A DNA stretch of 64,000 nucleotides, from contig DASZBM010000002.1 of assembly GCA_035944135.1 (NCBI GenBank), forward strand, positions 868,001-932,000. The letters are read 5' to 3'. The position numbers were made by a program, and so were the translations under genes. The first letter of the stretch is position 1, and each line of letters starts with the position of its first letter. This document shows positions 18,716 through 61,930 of the stretch, in pieces. The notes beneath the pieces are model-generated. The model was not told where the DNA came from. It did not search any database and saw nothing but the letters and a program-made list of their open reading frames with translations. The DNA comes from Acidobacteriaceae bacterium. Lineage in GTDB: Bacteria; Acidobacteriota; Terriglobia; Terriglobales; Acidobacteriaceae.

Positions 18716-20251
18716 ATGCAGAAGTCATCTTCAAGCCTGGCGCTCCTCCTCGCAGTGCTCGCTGTCCTTGCCGCAGGCTGCTCGAGCAACAACTCCGGTG
18801 GCTCGACCACACCCCAAAACCCCACGACTCCCGACATGGGCACCATCAGCACCGTCGGTGACAGTACGCAGTTTCAGATCAAGAGCGCCTCGAACAGCGA
18901 GTTCCTTGGCATTGCCTCACAGAACCAGACCGCTGGTGCTAGCCTGACCCTCGCATCCACCGACAGCGCGAGCGATCAGCTTTGGCATTTCATGCCCATG
19001 GGCAACAGCGAATTCAATGTCGAGAATCTGCTAACCCACCAGGTCATAGGCATCGCCAACGCTTCCACTGCGGGCGGAGCGCAGGCGCTCCAATGGGCCG
19101 ACAACGGAACCAATGATCACCTCTGGTCCTTCTACATCCTCACCGACGGCAACTATCTCATCAAAAACATCAACAGCGGACTCTATCTCCAGCTCGATAC
19201 GTCGGCCTCACCCAGCATCATCGACCAGGGCGCCCGAGCCACCACCGGCACCGGCTGCAGGTGCCAGGAGTGGACACTCACCGACACATTCAACAACGTC
19301 TACCCTGCCCCGCTCGCCATCTCTGGCTCCGGCATTTACGTCCACGACCCCAACATGATCCAGGACGCCAGCGGCACCTTCTGGCTCTATGGCACGCACA
19401 ACACGCTCGCCAGTTCCACCGACATGTCCACCTTCACCGCCGTCACCAGCGGCGACATCAACCCGGACTTCAGCTGGTGGGCCTCTGAAAACACCACCGG
19501 CACCAACGGCCGCACCGACATCTGGGCCCCTGACGTCCTCCATGCCAACGGCGTCTACTATCAGTACTACTCGATTCCCATCTACAACAACCCCGCCGTC
19601 GCCGGCACCAACAGCGGCCCCCAAGCCGTCATCGCCCTCGCCACCAGCACCAGCCCCAGCGGCCCGTGGACCGACGCCGGCAAGATCATCGCTTCATGCG
19701 GCACCACTACCGGATGCACCACCGGCTTCAATGCCATCGACCCCGCTCTCTTCATCGATAGCGCCGGCAACTGGTGGCTCTCCTTCGGCTCCTGGAACGA
19801 CGGCATTCACATCCTCCAGCTCGACCCCGCCACCGGGCTCCGCCTGGCTTCCAACACCACCCTCGCCAACATCGCCGCTCGCACCAATGGCGAAGAGGGC
19901 TCCTTCATCTACCCCTACGTCTTCAACGGAACGCAGTACTTCTACTACTTCGCCTCGATCAACGTCTGCTGCAGCGGAACCTCCAGCACCTATCGCATCA
20001 TCGTCGGCCGCTCCACCATCCCCACCGGCCCGTACGTCGATCGCGGTGGCATCGGTCTCTCTCAAGGCGGAGGCACCATCCTTCTCAGCTCTCACTCCAA
20101 CATCTACGGCCCTGGCGGCCAGAGCGTCATGACTGTCAATAACAAACCGCTGCTCGTCTACCACTACTACGACGGCAACAACAACGGCACGCCTACCCTG
20201 GGCCTCAACTATCTCGTCTTCGACTCCTCAGGCTGGCCATCCGTTCAGTAA
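18716..20251 (+). CDS. Lipoprotein with ricin-type beta-trefoil and GH43 catalytic domain
   Basis: A 511-residue protein. The N-terminus is a lipoprotein signal with lipobox LAAGC (Cys22) and a Ser/Thr/Pro-rich linker. Residues about 45-175 form a ricin B/CBM13-like beta-trefoil (LWHFMPMGNSEFNVENLLTH, then NYLIKNINSGLYLQLDTSAS). Residues about 190-511 are GH43: VHDPNM with the catalytic base Asp, IWAPDV, FNAIDPALF and a CCSGT segment like that of the GH43 at 12769. The predicted location is the cell surface, binding arabinan through the trefoil and cutting it. It is transcribed divergently from GH51, sharing a 224-bp regulatory gap with the LacI-type operator. Confidence 0.92.
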   Translation: MQKSSSSLALLLAVLAVLAAGCSSNNSGGSTTPQNPTTPDMGTISTVGDSTQFQIKSASNSEFLGIASQNQTAGASLTLASTDSASDQLWHFMPMGNSEFNVENLLTHQVIGIANASTAGGAQALQWADNGTNDHLWSFYILTDGNYLIKNINSGLYLQLDTSASPSIIDQGARATTGTGCRCQEWTLTDTFNNVYPAPLAISGSGIYVHDPNMIQDASGTFWLYGTHNTLASSTDMSTFTAVTSGDINPDFSWWASENTTGTNGRTDIWAPDVLHANGVYYQYYSIPIYNNPAVAGTNSGPQAVIALATSTSPSGPWTDAGKIIASCGTTTGCTTGFNAIDPALFIDSAGNWWLSFGSWNDGIHILQLDPATGLRLASNTTLANIAARTNGEEGSFIYPYVFNGTQYFYYFASINVCCSGTSSTYRIIVGRSTIPTGPYVDRGGIGLSQGGGTILLSSHSNIYGPGGQSVMTVNNKPLLVYHYYDGNNNGTPTLGLNYLVFDSSGWPSVQ

Positions 20252-30852: not shown

Positions 30853-32034
30853 TTATTCCACCGGCAGCTTCGCCTTGTATCCGTCGCGTGCAATCACCGA
30901 GTACTTCACAGCCTTGCCCTTCTCATCCTGCATCTTCAGCGGCTTGCCTTCCTGATCCACCAGGTACACCTTCACCTTGCGGTAGCTGCCGTCATTCGCC
31001 GTGTTCGTCGGTCTGTAGGTCACCACATACTGGTTCCGTATCGACTCATTGATCTGCGAAAAAACATCCGGCAGCGCTCCCTGGAAGACCGGCTGAAACC
31101 ACATTCCGCCCGTCATCTCCGCGAACGTGCGCATCTCGTTATCGGCCTGCAGATAATCCATATGCCGCGCCGCGCCGCCCATTCCCATGCCGCCGCCCGA
31201 CATCTCCCGCACCATTCCGCCCGTGCTGATCGTAAAGATCGTCACATTCGGCGTCGCCTTGATCTTCGCCAGCATCTTGTCCAGCGTGATATGTGACATC
31301 GTGTCCCGGCCGGTCGAGATTAGGATGATGTACTTCCGCCCCTCCACCCTGCTCAGCCGGTCCAGCATCTCGTACAGCGCGTCGAACTCATTCGTCTCGC
31401 TGAATCCCGGAATCACCAGGCTCTGCAGCGCCTCCGCGATCGTCGACTGGTTGTTCGTAAAGTCGCACAGGATATGCGTGCGCATGTCGTACGTCGCAAC
31501 CGCGATGTAATCCTCCGGCTGCAGCGTCCTGAAGAACGCCACCGCCGCATTCTGCATATCGTTGATGAACCAGTACGAGTTCGACGCAAACTCCAGCAGC
31601 ATCACCGCCGTAATCGGAGTCTTCGTCAGCCGCACCGACTGCACCTTCTGCTCGACCCCATCCTCCACCACCAGGAAGTTGTCCGGCTTCAGCCCCGGCA
31701 CAAACTGATGCGTCTTATCCAGCAGCACGTTCACGTCCAGGTTCACAATCGGCACGTCCACGCGCATCGAGAACGTCTCATTGTTCGGGTTCTTGACCTT
31801 CTCTTCCGCAGGAGCCGGCGGGGGCGCTTCGTCCGTGTTCTTCTTCGGCAGCACGATGCCATCCGTGCCCGTATCCGGCCCCGCGCTGTCATCCGTCGTC
31901 GCCGGAGGTGTCGGCTTCTGCTGCTGCTGCTGTGCAGGAGAACTCGCCGGCGCGCTCTGCCCCCACACCGGGGCCGCACCCGTTGCCGCCAGACTCACCA
32001 CCAGACCGACCGCCCAAACCCAACCCGTCTTCAT
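30853..32034 (-). CDS. VWFA-related acidobacterial domain protein
   Basis: A 393-residue exported protein. The signal peptide (WAVGLVVSLAATGAAPVWGQ) is followed by a low-complexity Gln/Pro/Asp linker (residues about 27-85). A beta strand segment with VDVPIVNLDVNVLLDKTHQF marks the VWFA-related family found mainly in Acidobacteria. The VWA-like domain (about 150-300) has RKYIILISTGRDTMS in place of the classical DxSxS metal site, so metal binding is doubtful. A Gly/Met-rich loop (GGGMGMGG) is present. The C-terminus is a beta domain (RKVKVYLVDQEGKPLK). Role unknown, probably adhesion or complex assembly. Confidence 0.88.
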   Translation of the reverse strand: MKTGWVWAVGLVVSLAATGAAPVWGQSAPASSPAQQQQQKPTPPATTDDSAGPDTGTDGIVLPKKNTDEAPPPAPAEEKVKNPNNETFSMRVDVPIVNLDVNVLLDKTHQFVPGLKPDNFLVVEDGVEQKVQSVRLTKTPITAVMLLEFASNSYWFINDMQNAAVAFFRTLQPEDYIAVATYDMRTHILCDFTNNQSTIAEALQSLVIPGFSETNEFDALYEMLDRLSRVEGRKYIILISTGRDTMSHITLDKMLAKIKATPNVTIFTISTGGMVREMSGGGMGMGGAARHMDYLQADNEMRTFAEMTGGMWFQPVFQGALPDVFSQINESIRNQYVVTYRPTNTANDGSYRKVKVYLVDQEGKPLKMQDEKGKAVKYSVIARDGYKAKLPVE

Positions 32035-55476: not shown

Positions 55477-55812
55477 CTAACAACCCGCGACGATGGATTC
55501 GTCGTACGGCAGAGTCAGGAACCGGCGCTGGCCGCAGCGTCCGCCGGCGATGGAGGGGATGAGCATGACTTCGTCGCCGTCCTCGAACTGGTGGCTGTCG
55601 CCGCCGAGGAAGCGGATGTCCTCGTCGTTGACGTAGACGTTGATGAACTTGCGGAGATTGCCGTTGTCATCCTTGACGTTCTGGGCGAGCGCGGGGAATT
55701 TCGCGTCGAACTCGGCCAACAGACCGCGAAGGTTTCTGGCCTCGCTGGCGAAGGACTTCTGGCCATCGGTGTGGCGGGCAAGCGCTGTAGGCAAAGTGAT
55801 CTTTACGCTCAC
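55477..55812 (-). CDS. MoaD/ThiS-family sulfur-carrier protein with C-terminal tail
   Basis: A 111-residue ubiquitin-like protein. The beta-grasp core runs to about residue 91 (ITLPTALARHTDG, then FINVYVNDEDIRFLGGDSHQ, then EDGDEVMLIPSIAGG). The terminal di-glycine that would be thiocarboxylated is Gly90-Gly91, but 20 more residues follow (RCGQRRFLTLPYDESIVAGC), so a protease would have to expose it. The GTG start overlaps the threonine-synthase-like stop as GTGA. By analogy with CysO-CysM in actinobacteria, it may donate sulfur to the product of the upstream enzyme. A terminator follows the gene. Confidence 0.88.
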   Translation of the reverse strand: MSVKITLPTALARHTDGQKSFASEARNLRGLLAEFDAKFPALAQNVKDDNGNLRKFINVYVNDEDIRFLGGDSHQFEDGDEVMLIPSIAGGRCGQRRFLTLPYDESIVAGC

Positions 55813-57122
55813 CGGGCACCTCCTGCGAGCTCGAACTCTTCCTCGGCATCGGCACTCACGTTCGCCAGCGAACCGTCGACCTCGCGAAGGTACTGGTCGA
55901 ATTCAGCGAGCCGCGGCTTGACGGCGCGATCCTGGTGGAAGCGACCCGCGAGGGCGTCGGTGGTCTTGAGGCCGTTGCCGGTGATGCAGACGACGGTGAG
56001 GTCATCAGCGCCGATGCGGCCCTGCGCGATCAGCTTGGCGGTGACAGCGGTGGTGACGCCGCCGGCGGTCTCCGTGAAGATACCTTCGGTCTCAGCGAGC
56101 TCCTGGATGCCGGAGACGATCTCGACGTCGGAGACGTCCTCCGCGAAGCCGCCTGTGGACTGGATCATCTTTGCGGCGAGCGGCCCATCTGCGGGGTTGC
56201 CGATGGCGAGCGAGCGCGCAATGGTAAGCGGACGCTGAGGCTCTATGTCTTCACGTCCGTTCTTGACGGCCTGCGAGATGGGCGAGCAGCCGGTCGCCTG
56301 CGCGCCAAAGAACTTCACGTCCTTGGGCTCGACGAGACCGAGCGCGACGAGTTCGTCGAAGGCCTTTTTGATCTTGCGGATCAGCGAGCCGCCGGCCATC
56401 GGGCAGACGACGTTGTCAGGGAGGCGCCAGCCGAGCTGTTCGGCGATCTCGTAGCCGACGGTCTTGGAGCCCTCGGCGTAATAGGGGCGGAGATTGACGT
56501 TGACGAAGCCCCAGTTGTACTCGTCGGCAATGAGCGTGCAGAGGCGGTTGACGTGGTCGTAGTTGCCATCGATGCGGACGAGGCGCGCGCCGTAAATTTG
56601 CGTGTTCAGAATCTTTGCGGGCTCGAGATCGGCGGGAACGAGGATGCAGGCCTTGAGGCCGAGGCGCGATGCCTGCGCGGCAACGCTGTTAGCGAGGTTG
56701 CCGGTGGAGCTGCAACCGACGACATCGAACCCGAAGGCCTGCGCGTTGGCGAGCGCGACGGAGACGACGCGGTCCTTGAAGCTGAGCGTGGGAAAGCAGA
56801 CGGAGTCGTTCTTTACGTAAAGATTATTGGAGCCGATGCGCTGTCCCAGGCGCTTGGCGCGGACGAGCGGCGTGAAGCCTACGGGAAGATCGGGCTGGAA
56901 GCCCGCGGGGATGGGCAGCAGTTCCTTGTAGCGCCAGATGTTTGCCGGACCAGCGGCTACGCTCTCGCGCGTGAAACGGCCGCGAACCGATTCGAGATCG
57001 TAGTGCACTTCGAGAGGAGCCAGGCAGTCATCGCACGCCGATAGGGGCTGGTTGCCGAAGCTCTTGCCGCACTCATTGCAGCGAAGTTCGTAGACGGTAC
57101 AGGAAGACTCCAAAACGCTCAT
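55809..57122 (-). CDS. thrC: Threonine synthase-like PLP enzyme
   Basis: A 437-residue fold-type II PLP enzyme. An N-terminal zinc ribbon (Cys15, Cys18, Cys30, Cys33: CNECGK and CDDCLA) is typical of one threonine-synthase subgroup. PLP Lys116 lies in TLSFKDRVV, the phosphate loop in STGNLANSVAAQA, and TGNGLKTTDAL is near the end. I chose the ATG at 57122, 8 bp after GGGAG; GTG at 57131 is also in frame. Threonine synthases act on O-phosphohomoserine. The coupled sulfur-carrier gene and the SAM-I-type riboswitch upstream suggest instead, or in addition, homocysteine formation from phosphohomoserine. That is inference. Confidence 0.9.
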   Translation of the reverse strand: MSVLESSCTVYELRCNECGKSFGNQPLSACDDCLAPLEVHYDLESVRGRFTRESVAAGPANIWRYKELLPIPAGFQPDLPVGFTPLVRAKRLGQRIGSNNLYVKNDSVCFPTLSFKDRVVSVALANAQAFGFDVVGCSSTGNLANSVAAQASRLGLKACILVPADLEPAKILNTQIYGARLVRIDGNYDHVNRLCTLIADEYNWGFVNVNLRPYYAEGSKTVGYEIAEQLGWRLPDNVVCPMAGGSLIRKIKKAFDELVALGLVEPKDVKFFGAQATGCSPISQAVKNGREDIEPQRPLTIARSLAIGNPADGPLAAKMIQSTGGFAEDVSDVEIVSGIQELAETEGIFTETAGGVTTAVTAKLIAQGRIGADDLTVVCITGNGLKTTDALAGRFHQDRAVKPRLAEFDQYLREVDGSLANVSADAEEEFELAGGAR

Positions 57123-57249
57123 CAACCACACTCCCGGTGGGCTTATGAGGGGTGTTACGCTGAGACGTTTCTCTTTCGTTGGGAAATCACCGCGTTCGGT
57201 GGAGGGAATATGAACGCGGAATGCAGGAAATTGAACCTGCTATACCGAA

Positions 57250-57354
57250 TCTCATGTTCCCTGGATCCCAGGAGAGAGTTGACACCGGTACGCCTTTGTT
57301 CTGTCCGGTTGTCGTGGCGTCTCAGGGCTCGTCCCTCAGCCACTCTGCATGAAA
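57250..57354 (-). ncRNA. SAM-I-type riboswitch upstream of the thrC-like/moaD-like operon
   Basis: On the minus strand a 105-nt element fits the SAM-I clan. P1 pairs TTTCATG (57354-57348) with CATGAGA (57256-57250). P2 is GTGGC/GCCAC with the conserved GAGGGA and GAGCCC, and a kink-turn-like TGAGAC. GACAACC precedes P3 (ACCGG/CCGGT), then GTGTCAA. P4 is CCTGG/CCAGG. The gene start is 128 bp downstream. It probably lowers expression when S-adenosylmethionine is abundant. I read this by eye; a covariance-model search would settle it. Confidence 0.8.
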
Positions 57355-57428
57355 TTCGACCTGCCTTGCGGCAGATGGAATGTTCTGTTTGTATCACAGG
57401 TTGCGGAAGCACGCAAATCCACAAGCAG

Positions 57429-57806
57429 TTACATGGAAGATTCGGGGACGATCGCCTGGACGCCGTCGGCAAAGGCGGCTGGGTCAAACTCGGTGCGGAC
57501 GATCTCGTCTGGGCAGTCGGTGAGGTTGGCGACGCGCCAGTTGCAGACAAAGGCGACAAGCTGCTCGGGCTGCGCGGTCTTGATCTCGCTGCAAAGCTTT
57601 TCGGCCTGTTCAATGCCGCCGTCGCCTTCGACATCGATGAGGACGAGGTCGTACTCGCGGGCCCAGAACTTGTCGAGCGATTCCTTGAAGCTGAGCGCGG
57701 AGTCGACATCAAAGCCCTTGAGACGAAGAACATGGTCGCGAAGCGGGCGAATCGTGTCTCGCGTGCAAACGTGAAGGATGGCGCGTTTTCCCGACCCCTT
57801 GGACAT
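57429..57806 (-). CDS. Single-domain receiver-like protein (degenerate)
   Basis: A 125-residue protein with the CheY-like fold order: beta1 AILHVCTRD, helix, beta2 FDVDSALS, beta3 YDLVLIDVEGDGG with a possible phosphoacceptor Asp, then beta4 QLVAFVCNW. The usual paired acidic residues after beta1 (normally DD) are only partly present (RD) and the Lys of beta5 is not obvious, so phosphorylation may be lost. GGGAGAACA precedes the ATG. No partner kinase is next to it. It is likely a pseudo-receiver or a stand-alone regulator. Confidence 0.8.
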   Translation of the reverse strand: MSKGSGKRAILHVCTRDTIRPLRDHVLRLKGFDVDSALSFKESLDKFWAREYDLVLIDVEGDGGIEQAEKLCSEIKTAQPEQLVAFVCNWRVANLTDCPDEIVRTEFDPAAFADGVQAIVPESSM

Positions 57807-58077: not shown

Positions 58078-60791
<2,714 letters not shown>

Positions 60792-60795
<4 letters not shown>

Positions 60796-61892
60796 GCAGC
60801 CACCTCGATCTTCGCGCCGAGTCTGCGCGGTGCCCTGCCTTCGACTGCCTTCGCGATTGCAGCGATGTGCTCCGGTGTGTTGCCGCAACATCCGCCGGCG
60901 ATGTTGATGAGGCCATCCTGCGCAAACTGGCCGAGGAAGCGGCCCATGTCTTCGGGCTTGAGATCGAAGCCGGTTTCGGAGAGCGGGTTTGGAAGGCCGG
61001 CATTCGGGTAGCACGAGATTGCTACGTCTGCCTTGTCCGAGAGCTCCTCAAGAAACGGATACATCAGCTCCGGTCCGAGCGAGCAGTTCAGGCCAACGCT
61101 GAGCGGATTCACATGCTTAACGGCATTCCAGAAGGCTTCCGTCGTCTGCGCTGAGATCAGCGTCTCACCGCCGCGCCCGACCGCGGCAGAGATCATTACC
61201 GGAAGCTCCTTCTTGTCCTCATCGAAGACCTCACGGATGGCAACCAGTGCGGCCTTCGCGTTCAGTGAATCGAAAATGGTTTCGACAAGCAGCAGGTCCA
61301 CTCCGCCGGCAATCAGGGCCCGCACCTCTTCCGCATATGCAGCCTTCACCTGGTCGAAGGTGACGACGCGAAAGCCCGGGTCATCTGCATCCGGCGAGTT
61401 TGAAAGCGAGACGGTCAGCGGACCGATAGCGCCCGCAACAAAACGCTGCCTGCCGGTTTCATTGGCGACGCGGTCAGCCCATTCCCTGCACTGCCGCGCA
61501 GATGTCTCATTGATCTCCCATGCGAGATTTTTGAGTGATTCATCTTCAATGATGCGCTGGTAGAACTCCGGATCCTTTCGGCCCCCACGCTCGCGCGGAT
61601 CCTCAACGAAGAACTCGCTCTGCGTAATGCTCGTGGCCCCGAAAGTGTTGGTTTCGATGATGTCGGCGCCGGCCTCCAGAAAGCGCCGGTGGATATCGCC
61701 GATCATTTTCGGCTGCGTTATCGAGAAGAGATCTCCGTTATTCAGCAGATCCTTGGTCGCGTTCTTGAAGCGATCGCCACGGATATCCGTTTCCTTCATT
61801 CCATAGGTGCGGATTGTTGTACCCATCGCACCGTCAATAATCGCGATGCGCTCTTCGAGAATCTTCTCGAGAGGATGTCTTTGGTGGCTCAT
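60792..61892 (-). CDS. Methionine synthase, homocysteine-binding subunit
   Basis: A 366-residue zinc-dependent homocysteine S-methyltransferase domain. It starts at the ATG at 61892, 4 bp after GGAGG. The motifs [32 protein letters not shown] and the zinc Cys residues in GLNCSLGP and [13 protein letters not shown] are present. Usually this is the first domain of a single MetH. Here it ends with a stop that overlaps the next start, so the two proteins form a split enzyme. No SAM riboswitch is visible in front of this operon. Confidence 0.94.
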
Positions 61893-61930
61893 TTCCCCTC
61901 CATTCGCCGGCAACCTTCTCACAAAGCATC

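Follow-up and report, generated by a model that had tools for sequence, protein, structure and literature searches.

In Wolinella succinogenes, the sulfur carrier HcyS and its partner MetY, a PF01053 enzyme of fold type I acting on O-acetylhomoserine, reportedly produce homocysteine from a protein thiocarboxylate, as described by Krishnamoorthy and Begley in 2011. In Streptomyces albulus, metO is said to lie downstream of metM, and the thiocarboxylate of MetO reportedly serves as the sulfur donor. Streptomyces MetM makes homocysteine from O-phosphohomoserine (Hasebe et al. 2024, doi 10.1128/aem.01247-24), as related in the accessible text of PMC12172450, which also places an S-adenosylmethionine (SAM) riboswitch upstream of S. 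albulus metM and, in discussing a sulfur-carrier gene next to thrC of Microcystis, names S. albulus metO. A 64,000-nucleotide (nt) stretch from an Acidobacteriaceae bacterium (assembly GCA_035944135.1, contig DASZBM010000002.1, positions 868,001 to 932,000; hereafter the window) carries a SAM-I riboswitch, a metM-like gene and a metO-like gene on its minus strand (Table 1). Judged by sequence comparison, this operon very probably encodes a homocysteine synthase of the MetM/MetO kind, to which it was assigned because of the Streptomyces reports and a matching trio of elements in Nonomuraea gerenzanensis. The initial annotation had regarded the enzyme-carrier pairing as undescribed for homocysteine synthesis, a reading that is ruled out by MetM and metO in the accessible part of PMC12172450; the acidobacterial operon is a well-supported further example of a known pairing, and the comparative evidence is what is added to it. 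No earlier report of the pairing in Acidobacteria was found among the papers listed for the literature searched, from which most subscription journals were absent.

The likeness to S. albulus MetM/MetO, as far as the available text of that source extends, lies in the threonine-synthase homologue, the SAM riboswitch and the sulfur-carrier gene metO, whereas the window differs in its acidobacterial host and perhaps in its carrier, which has a 20-residue tail after the diglycine (GG), and relatives add the cluster partners thrB, E1, cysteine desulfurase and asd. Closeness to MetM was gauged by an actinomycete stand-in, Nonomuraea. In N. gerenzanensis, a SAM-I element (68.7 bits) accompanies a metM gene (53.7% identity over 395 aligned residues) with metO 25 nt downstream, and a separate ThrC-like gene is present. 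The CysM/CysO/Mec+/MoeZR system of Mycobacterium tuberculosis, as given in the accessible part of PMC3227635, shares with the window a homologous carrier, a pyridoxal 5'-phosphate (PLP) enzyme of fold type II and an E1-rhodanese that sulfurates the carrier, and the window genome has CysM-like and JAMM genes side by side; however, CysM/CysO makes cysteine from O-phosphoserine, CysM is a cysteine synthase family member, GG closes the CysO chain in the solved structure, and the partner of the window carrier belongs to the thrC family and not to the cysK/M family. The HcyS/MetY partner is a PF01053 protein while that of the window is a PF00291 (PALP) protein, and the two enzymes are unrelated.

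Table 1. Elements of the operon and of the neighbouring methionine synthase genes, in window coordinates.
Feature	Position	Strand	Evidence
metM-like gene for a predicted homocysteine synthase; PLP fold-type II, threonine synthase family, N-terminal Cys4 zinc ribbon	55809..57122	minus	TIGR00260, tree, signature residues
metO-like gene, CysO/MoaD/ThiS-type sulfur carrier, 111 amino acids	55477..55812	minus	Pfam ThiS 45.9 bits; CysO 3dwg_C
SAM-I (S-box) riboswitch aptamer	57249..57355	minus	RF00162, 71.4 bits, E 1e-14; covariation in 16 copies
Leader between aptamer and metM start	57123..57248	minus	folds with and without P1
MetH N part, homocysteine S-methyltransferase half of split B12-dependent methionine synthase	60792..61922	minus	PF02574 269 bits, TIGR02082
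MetH C part, pterin/B12/activation half	58078..60770 (start approximate, open reading frame open to 61014)	minus	TIGR02082 1216 bits, PF02965, PF00809, PF02310

The open reading frame of the enzyme (55809-57131, minus strand, with its stop at 55809) encodes 440 amino acids from the GTG at 57131 or 437 from the ATG at 57122, and the ATG was taken as the start because the GGGAG is better placed for it. The protein scores 268 bits against TIGR00260 (thrC; cut-off 167) and also matches Pfam PALP. Homologues were compared in a set of 89 MetM-like sequences drawn from the window, Nonomuraea, eight survey genomes and 79 of a set of 80 named loci (L-numbers denote loci and G-numbers survey genomes). 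Cys18, Cys21, Cys33 and Cys36 are each conserved in 86 to 88 of the 89 aligned sequences, the window included, which bears out the zinc-ribbon threonine-synthase-like gene seen in the initial annotation, and the PLP lysine, K119, is present in 88. Twenty-one positions separate the MetM-like set from 10 ThrC-like sequences, some beside the PLP lysine and others in core motifs; typical forms are SFKDRVV against SFKDRGM, STGNLAN against STGNTSA, NLRPYYAEGSK against SVNPYRLEGQK and ETAGGV against EPASAA, and the changes from STGNT to STGNL and from NPxR to RPxY are nearly fixed among the MetM-like sequences. Judging from ThrC structures, these positions may contact the substrate. In a tree of 39 rows, 29 of the 89 MetM-like sequences, with Nonomuraea inside them, are split from the 10 ThrC-like sequences by a single branch with 100/100 support, although long branches lead to the Nonomuraea row and to some of the ThrC-like rows, and the ThrC choice is small and mixed.

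The aptamer, which the initial annotation had placed at 57250-57354, was recovered by the Rfam covariance search of the window as a match over the full RF00162 model (positions 1-108), well above the gathering score of 44.4 bits, and it is the sole Rfam match above gathering score in the window. The genome search found one SAM-I element in the whole 4.43-Mb assembly (10 contigs, 99.85% complete), and it is the one on the metM operon. Alignment of 16 copies (the window and 15 from relatives) showed two-sided changes at 10 of 25 pairs, compared with an average of 6.1 in shuffled alignments and 1 to 4 when the alignment was slid. Leaders were folded for the window and for 15 of the 59 named loci having SAM-I, with a mixed outcome: a recognisable Shine-Dalgarno start is present in 9 of the 16, and its accessibility without P1 rises in six, falls in two (among them the window) and is unchanged in one. 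The window Shine-Dalgarno appeared sequestered with P1 in one fold, but not under a different length and constraint. The direction of control is expected to be that plentiful SAM would turn the operon off.

The genome outside the operon is consistent with a separate role for the metM-like gene. Two genes exceed the thrC cut-off, the metM-like gene and a canonical thrC adjoining thrB (homoserine kinase) elsewhere, and they are 33% identical to each other. MetX was not found in the genome, its best match (87 bits to TIGR01392) fitting PRK06489, a MetX-like hydrolase, and MetA gave no match; the initial annotation had noted that a complete conventional route with no second thrC would speak against its proposal, and this combination was not found. 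PF01053 has eight matches in the genome, of which one is full length (503 bits), is cystathionine gamma-lyase/synthase-like and has cystathionine gamma-lyases as its best structures; the other seven are partial (21 to 37 bits) and include the aminotransferase of the window. The genome also has cysM-like and cysK-like genes of its own, and contig C5 holds one JAMM gene, at 19593, beside the cysM-like gene as well as a second CysO-like carrier gene followed by an E1-rhodanese gene, at 31955.

The class survey covered 151 genomes. The enzyme clade is present in 93 of the 151 genomes at 55-100% identity, the next group lying at 33-38% among the matches listed; three of the 93 rows are partial (G007, G063, G101), and in five the matched part is interrupted by a stop. 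The search for SAM-I found 82 sites, spread over 76 genomes, and 61 of these sites lie at most 600 nt upstream of metM on the same strand, in 61 of the 93 clade genomes. When matches of at least 346 bits and a single partial one (G109) were counted as MetX, and MetA was added, five genomes have both the clade and MetX/MetA, 88 the clade only, 42 MetX/MetA only and 16 neither (Fisher p 1e-18, inflated by kinship); with every MetX match at E 1e-40 the counts are 15, 78, 42 and 16 (p 4e-12, likewise inflated). At a cut-off of E 1e-60, under which the ThrC of the window genome itself goes undetected, at least 34 of the 93 clade genomes have a second match to the ThrC family.

Neighbouring genes in relatives point in the same direction. 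Of the 80 named loci, 59 have SAM-I and 75 have a carrier after metM, L084 being included although its carrier is 1.5 kb off. Four of them (L085, L089, L091, L095) have a SAM-I-led cluster in which metM or metO is followed by a match to homoserine kinase, and this ties the enzyme to O-phosphohomoserine, although thrB linkage would also suit a threonine synthase. In L150, SAM-I, metM, a MoeB/ThiF-type E1 gene, a cysteine desulfurase gene, an aspartate-semialdehyde dehydrogenase gene and metO follow one another in one direction; the first genes of L151 resemble those of L150 (by tblastn and by eye), and a carrier was not found there within 10 kb. In Nitrospinota, metM, metO and thiF are consecutive in all nine loci, a cysM-like gene comes next in eight (the ninth ends there) and a cysK-like gene precedes them in seven.

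The start codon of the carrier gene overlaps the stop of the enzyme gene as GTGA, and this, with the ThiS match, upholds the earlier description of a sulfur-carrier gene whose GTG overlies the enzyme stop. Its nearest solved structure is M. tuberculosis CysO (3dwg_C, E 1.2e-19). Sulfur carriers such as MoaD and ThiS generally end in GG. In the window carrier, the GG stands at residues 90-91 and 20 residues come after it, a feature that the initial annotation did not mention. Among 91 other carriers, from relatives and including the second carrier of the same genome, and with the GG motif itself used to place the tail, 14 have no residue after GG, 10 have one, 41 have two and 26 have three to 42, so that 77 of the 91 are tailed. 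Because most tailed carriers adjoin metM, the tailed form was read as a precursor and not as grounds for exclusion from the MetM/MetO kind. MoaD adenylation requires a free C-terminal glycine (PMC3227635, accessible part), and on this account the 20-residue tail would imply proteolytic trimming. The GG is kept across carriers and the tail is not; a conserved function of the tail as a general idea was rejected, since tails differ even within the genus (L144 compared with the window). A Prok-JAB (JAMM) gene is present in 149 of the 151 class genomes, the two without a match (G122, G128) both carrying the MetM clade, and because of this near-universal presence JAMM is available but not diagnostic, and was rejected as support for carrier maturation.

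Two observations on Cys-rich carrier ends were made alongside. The second carrier of the window genome (L102:19217-19519, contig C5), next to which the E1-rhodanese gene lies, ends in GG-CCPLAACCCR, a tail that could be metal-binding or cysteine-sensing. The MetO-like carriers L035:1761-2123 and L043:7250-7651 have in common a Cys-rich C-terminal element, CSCCSYCGQEDC, well past GG.

Taken together, these data are consistent with the following route, which accords with the earlier proposal that phosphohomoserine and a thiocarboxylated carrier may yield homocysteine under SAM control, a proposal that fits most of the comparative tests, with exceptions. Homoserine kinase (ThrB) would make O-phosphohomoserine, and MetM, a derivative of the threonine synthase family, would bind it, eliminate phosphate on PLP and accept the sulfur that MetO would carry as a thiocarboxylate on its C-terminal glycine. 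A JAMM protease probably trims the MetO tail back to GG; adenylation and sulfuration of the carrier are probably carried out by a MoeZ-like E1-rhodanese. The homocysteine product would then be methylated to methionine by MetH.

Several observations weigh against this assignment. A Microcystis homologue, for which its authors give 51.6% identity with S. albulus MetM and which also has a metO-like neighbour, showed mainly threonine synthase and deaminase activity in vitro, yielded with sulfide only an unidentified peak near methionine, and lacks the riboswitch; according to the accessible part of the same source (PMC12172450), it may not act fully as MetM. In five of the 80 named loci (L091 and L095 among them) the carrier was not found in the stretch examined, 21 of the 80 are without SAM-I (four of these having less than 200 nt upstream), 32 of the 93 clade genomes are without SAM-I upstream under the stricter filters used there, and SAM-I was not found in the nine Nitrospinota loci, two of which have less than 70 nt upstream. 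Five survey genomes have MetM and MetX together, and 16 have neither the MetM clade nor MetX/MetA. In G027 and G080 (L142, L143), the neighbours of metM are metX and a metY-like PF01053 gene, which the family scan identified as MetY in L142, and a carrier was not found within the 10 kb of either locus. This arrangement fits the assignment less simply; MetM may be otherwise employed there or may use free sulfide. The survey p values overstate independence because the genomes are related. Finally, the acyl-homoserine route was not found in the window genome by a search for MetX and MetA, a search that did not extend to the DUF39 (PF01837) route.

It is unlikely that the metM product is a mere second threonine synthase and the neighbouring carrier incidental: the protein exceeds the TIGR00260 cut-off and has retained both the PLP lysine and the fold, and the Microcystis homologue beside a metO-like gene makes threonine (PMC12172450, accessible part), but the window genome has its canonical thrC-thrB pair elsewhere and its only SAM-I element on the metM copy, the carrier accompanies 75 of 80 loci in a clade nearly exclusive with MetX/MetA, and the STGNL and RPxY changes are nearly fixed. 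PMC12452182 links thrC to T-boxes in Bacillota and, in its accessible part, has no mention of 'acidobact', and the available text of a Granulicella proteome paper (PMC7315648) names one ThrC, leaving ambiguous which of two is meant.

Archaeal cysteate synthase, which is derived from ThrC, uses a sulfur nucleophile, joining O-phosphoserine to sulfite. That the window enzyme likewise makes another sulfur amino acid, either cysteate or, in the manner of CysM, cysteine from O-phosphoserine and the carrier, is very unlikely. Its match to cysteate synthase (TIGR03844) reaches 48 bits against a cut-off of 325, the carrier is nearest to CysO, and the Nitrospinota clusters have cysK-like (7/9) and cysM-like (8/9) genes nearby; however, the window genome has cysM-like and cysK-like genes and a second CysO-like carrier of its own, and the linkage of SAM-I with homoserine kinase, aspartokinase-type and aspartate-semialdehyde dehydrogenase genes points to homoserine-derived methionine. 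It is just as improbable that the full-length PF01053 enzyme forms homocysteine from O-phosphohomoserine as in plants, with MetM an accessory, for although a PF01053 enzyme can fill the SAM-I position in six other genomes (below), the window gene is without SAM-I and best fits cystathionine gamma-lyase structures, and a gamma-synthase would have to be complemented by a beta-lyase, while the search turned up a single full-length PF01053 gene.

Eighteen of the 21 SAM-I sites that are not upstream of metM were examined; the remaining three are in genus g52, which two examined sites represent. At six (L124, L125, L129, L130, L140, L141), a PF01053 match lies 181 to 1,117 nt downstream on the same strand, and the genomes concerned (G041, G074, G104, G116, G149, G014) gave no match to the MetM clade and none to MetX/MetA, which is why a PF01053 enzyme is taken to be able to fill the SAM-I position. 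Three sites precede a metO copy and then an aspartokinase-type gene (the family scan covering the L137 copy only), with metM 11 kb away in G046 and on other contigs in G101 and G119. Two sites precede aspartokinase-type genes, both short or below cut-offs; at three more a class-V aminotransferase gene comes next (SufS-type in L133), and at two of the three it has cysK-like and hexapeptide-repeat (cysE-like) genes beyond it; and one is at a contig end. At L127 and L128, in genus g52, SAM-I precedes an unexpected AAA_5/MoxR-like ATPase gene (505 and 517 amino acids), and at L126 a 455-amino-acid open reading frame (1456-2823) with no match in Pfam (E 0.001) or NCBIfam (E 1e-30). Because of these downstream genes, the SAM-controlled position is read as one occupied in some genomes by MetM and in others by a carrier copy or by another gene of the sulfur or aspartate families, with three examined sites unplaced. 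At L124, open reading frames resembling bioF, bioD and bioA, by eye, come after SAM-I and the PF01053 gene.

Upstream of the metM operon on the same strand lies the split MetH (58078-61922), a consumer of homocysteine, given here as context only. The frame of the first MetH half stops before the second half in five relatives as well (L021, L026, L027, L030, L031). Between metH and the riboswitch, a receiver-like protein of 125 amino acids (57429-57806, minus strand) has weak response-regulator matches; it is present in nine of the 80 named loci (L022, L023, L025, L026, L027, L030, L031, L032, L068), and several other loci end there.

For the Acidobacteriota as a whole, a wider reading of the MetM/MetO assignment may be put forward tentatively, with a chance somewhat short of even. 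The O-phosphohomoserine/thiocarboxylate route would be the usual way to homocysteine and would have displaced the MetX route, standing where MetX/MetA is absent in 88 of the 151 genomes (78 with the looser cut-off), and the carrier would typically be a tailed precursor needing JAMM before E1 loading. CysM and MetM may both be supplied by a shared protease, E1 and desulfurase, linking cysteine and homocysteine through carriers instead of free sulfide, with SAM-I control placed on metM, on a distant metO copy or on a cysteine desulfurase.

Independent support from genomes for the MetM/MetO route is provided by the near-exclusion with MetX, the association with SAM-I and the clusters with homoserine kinase or sulfur-relay genes; the same associations supply targets for assay, while the tailed carriers raise the question of proteolytic maturation. 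If the assignment is correct, it would explain methionine synthesis in representatives of a very common soil phylum in which pathway tools that seek a homoserine acyltransferase would find none, and many genes annotated as 'threonine synthase' beside a 'MoaD/ThiS family protein' may be homocysteine synthases.

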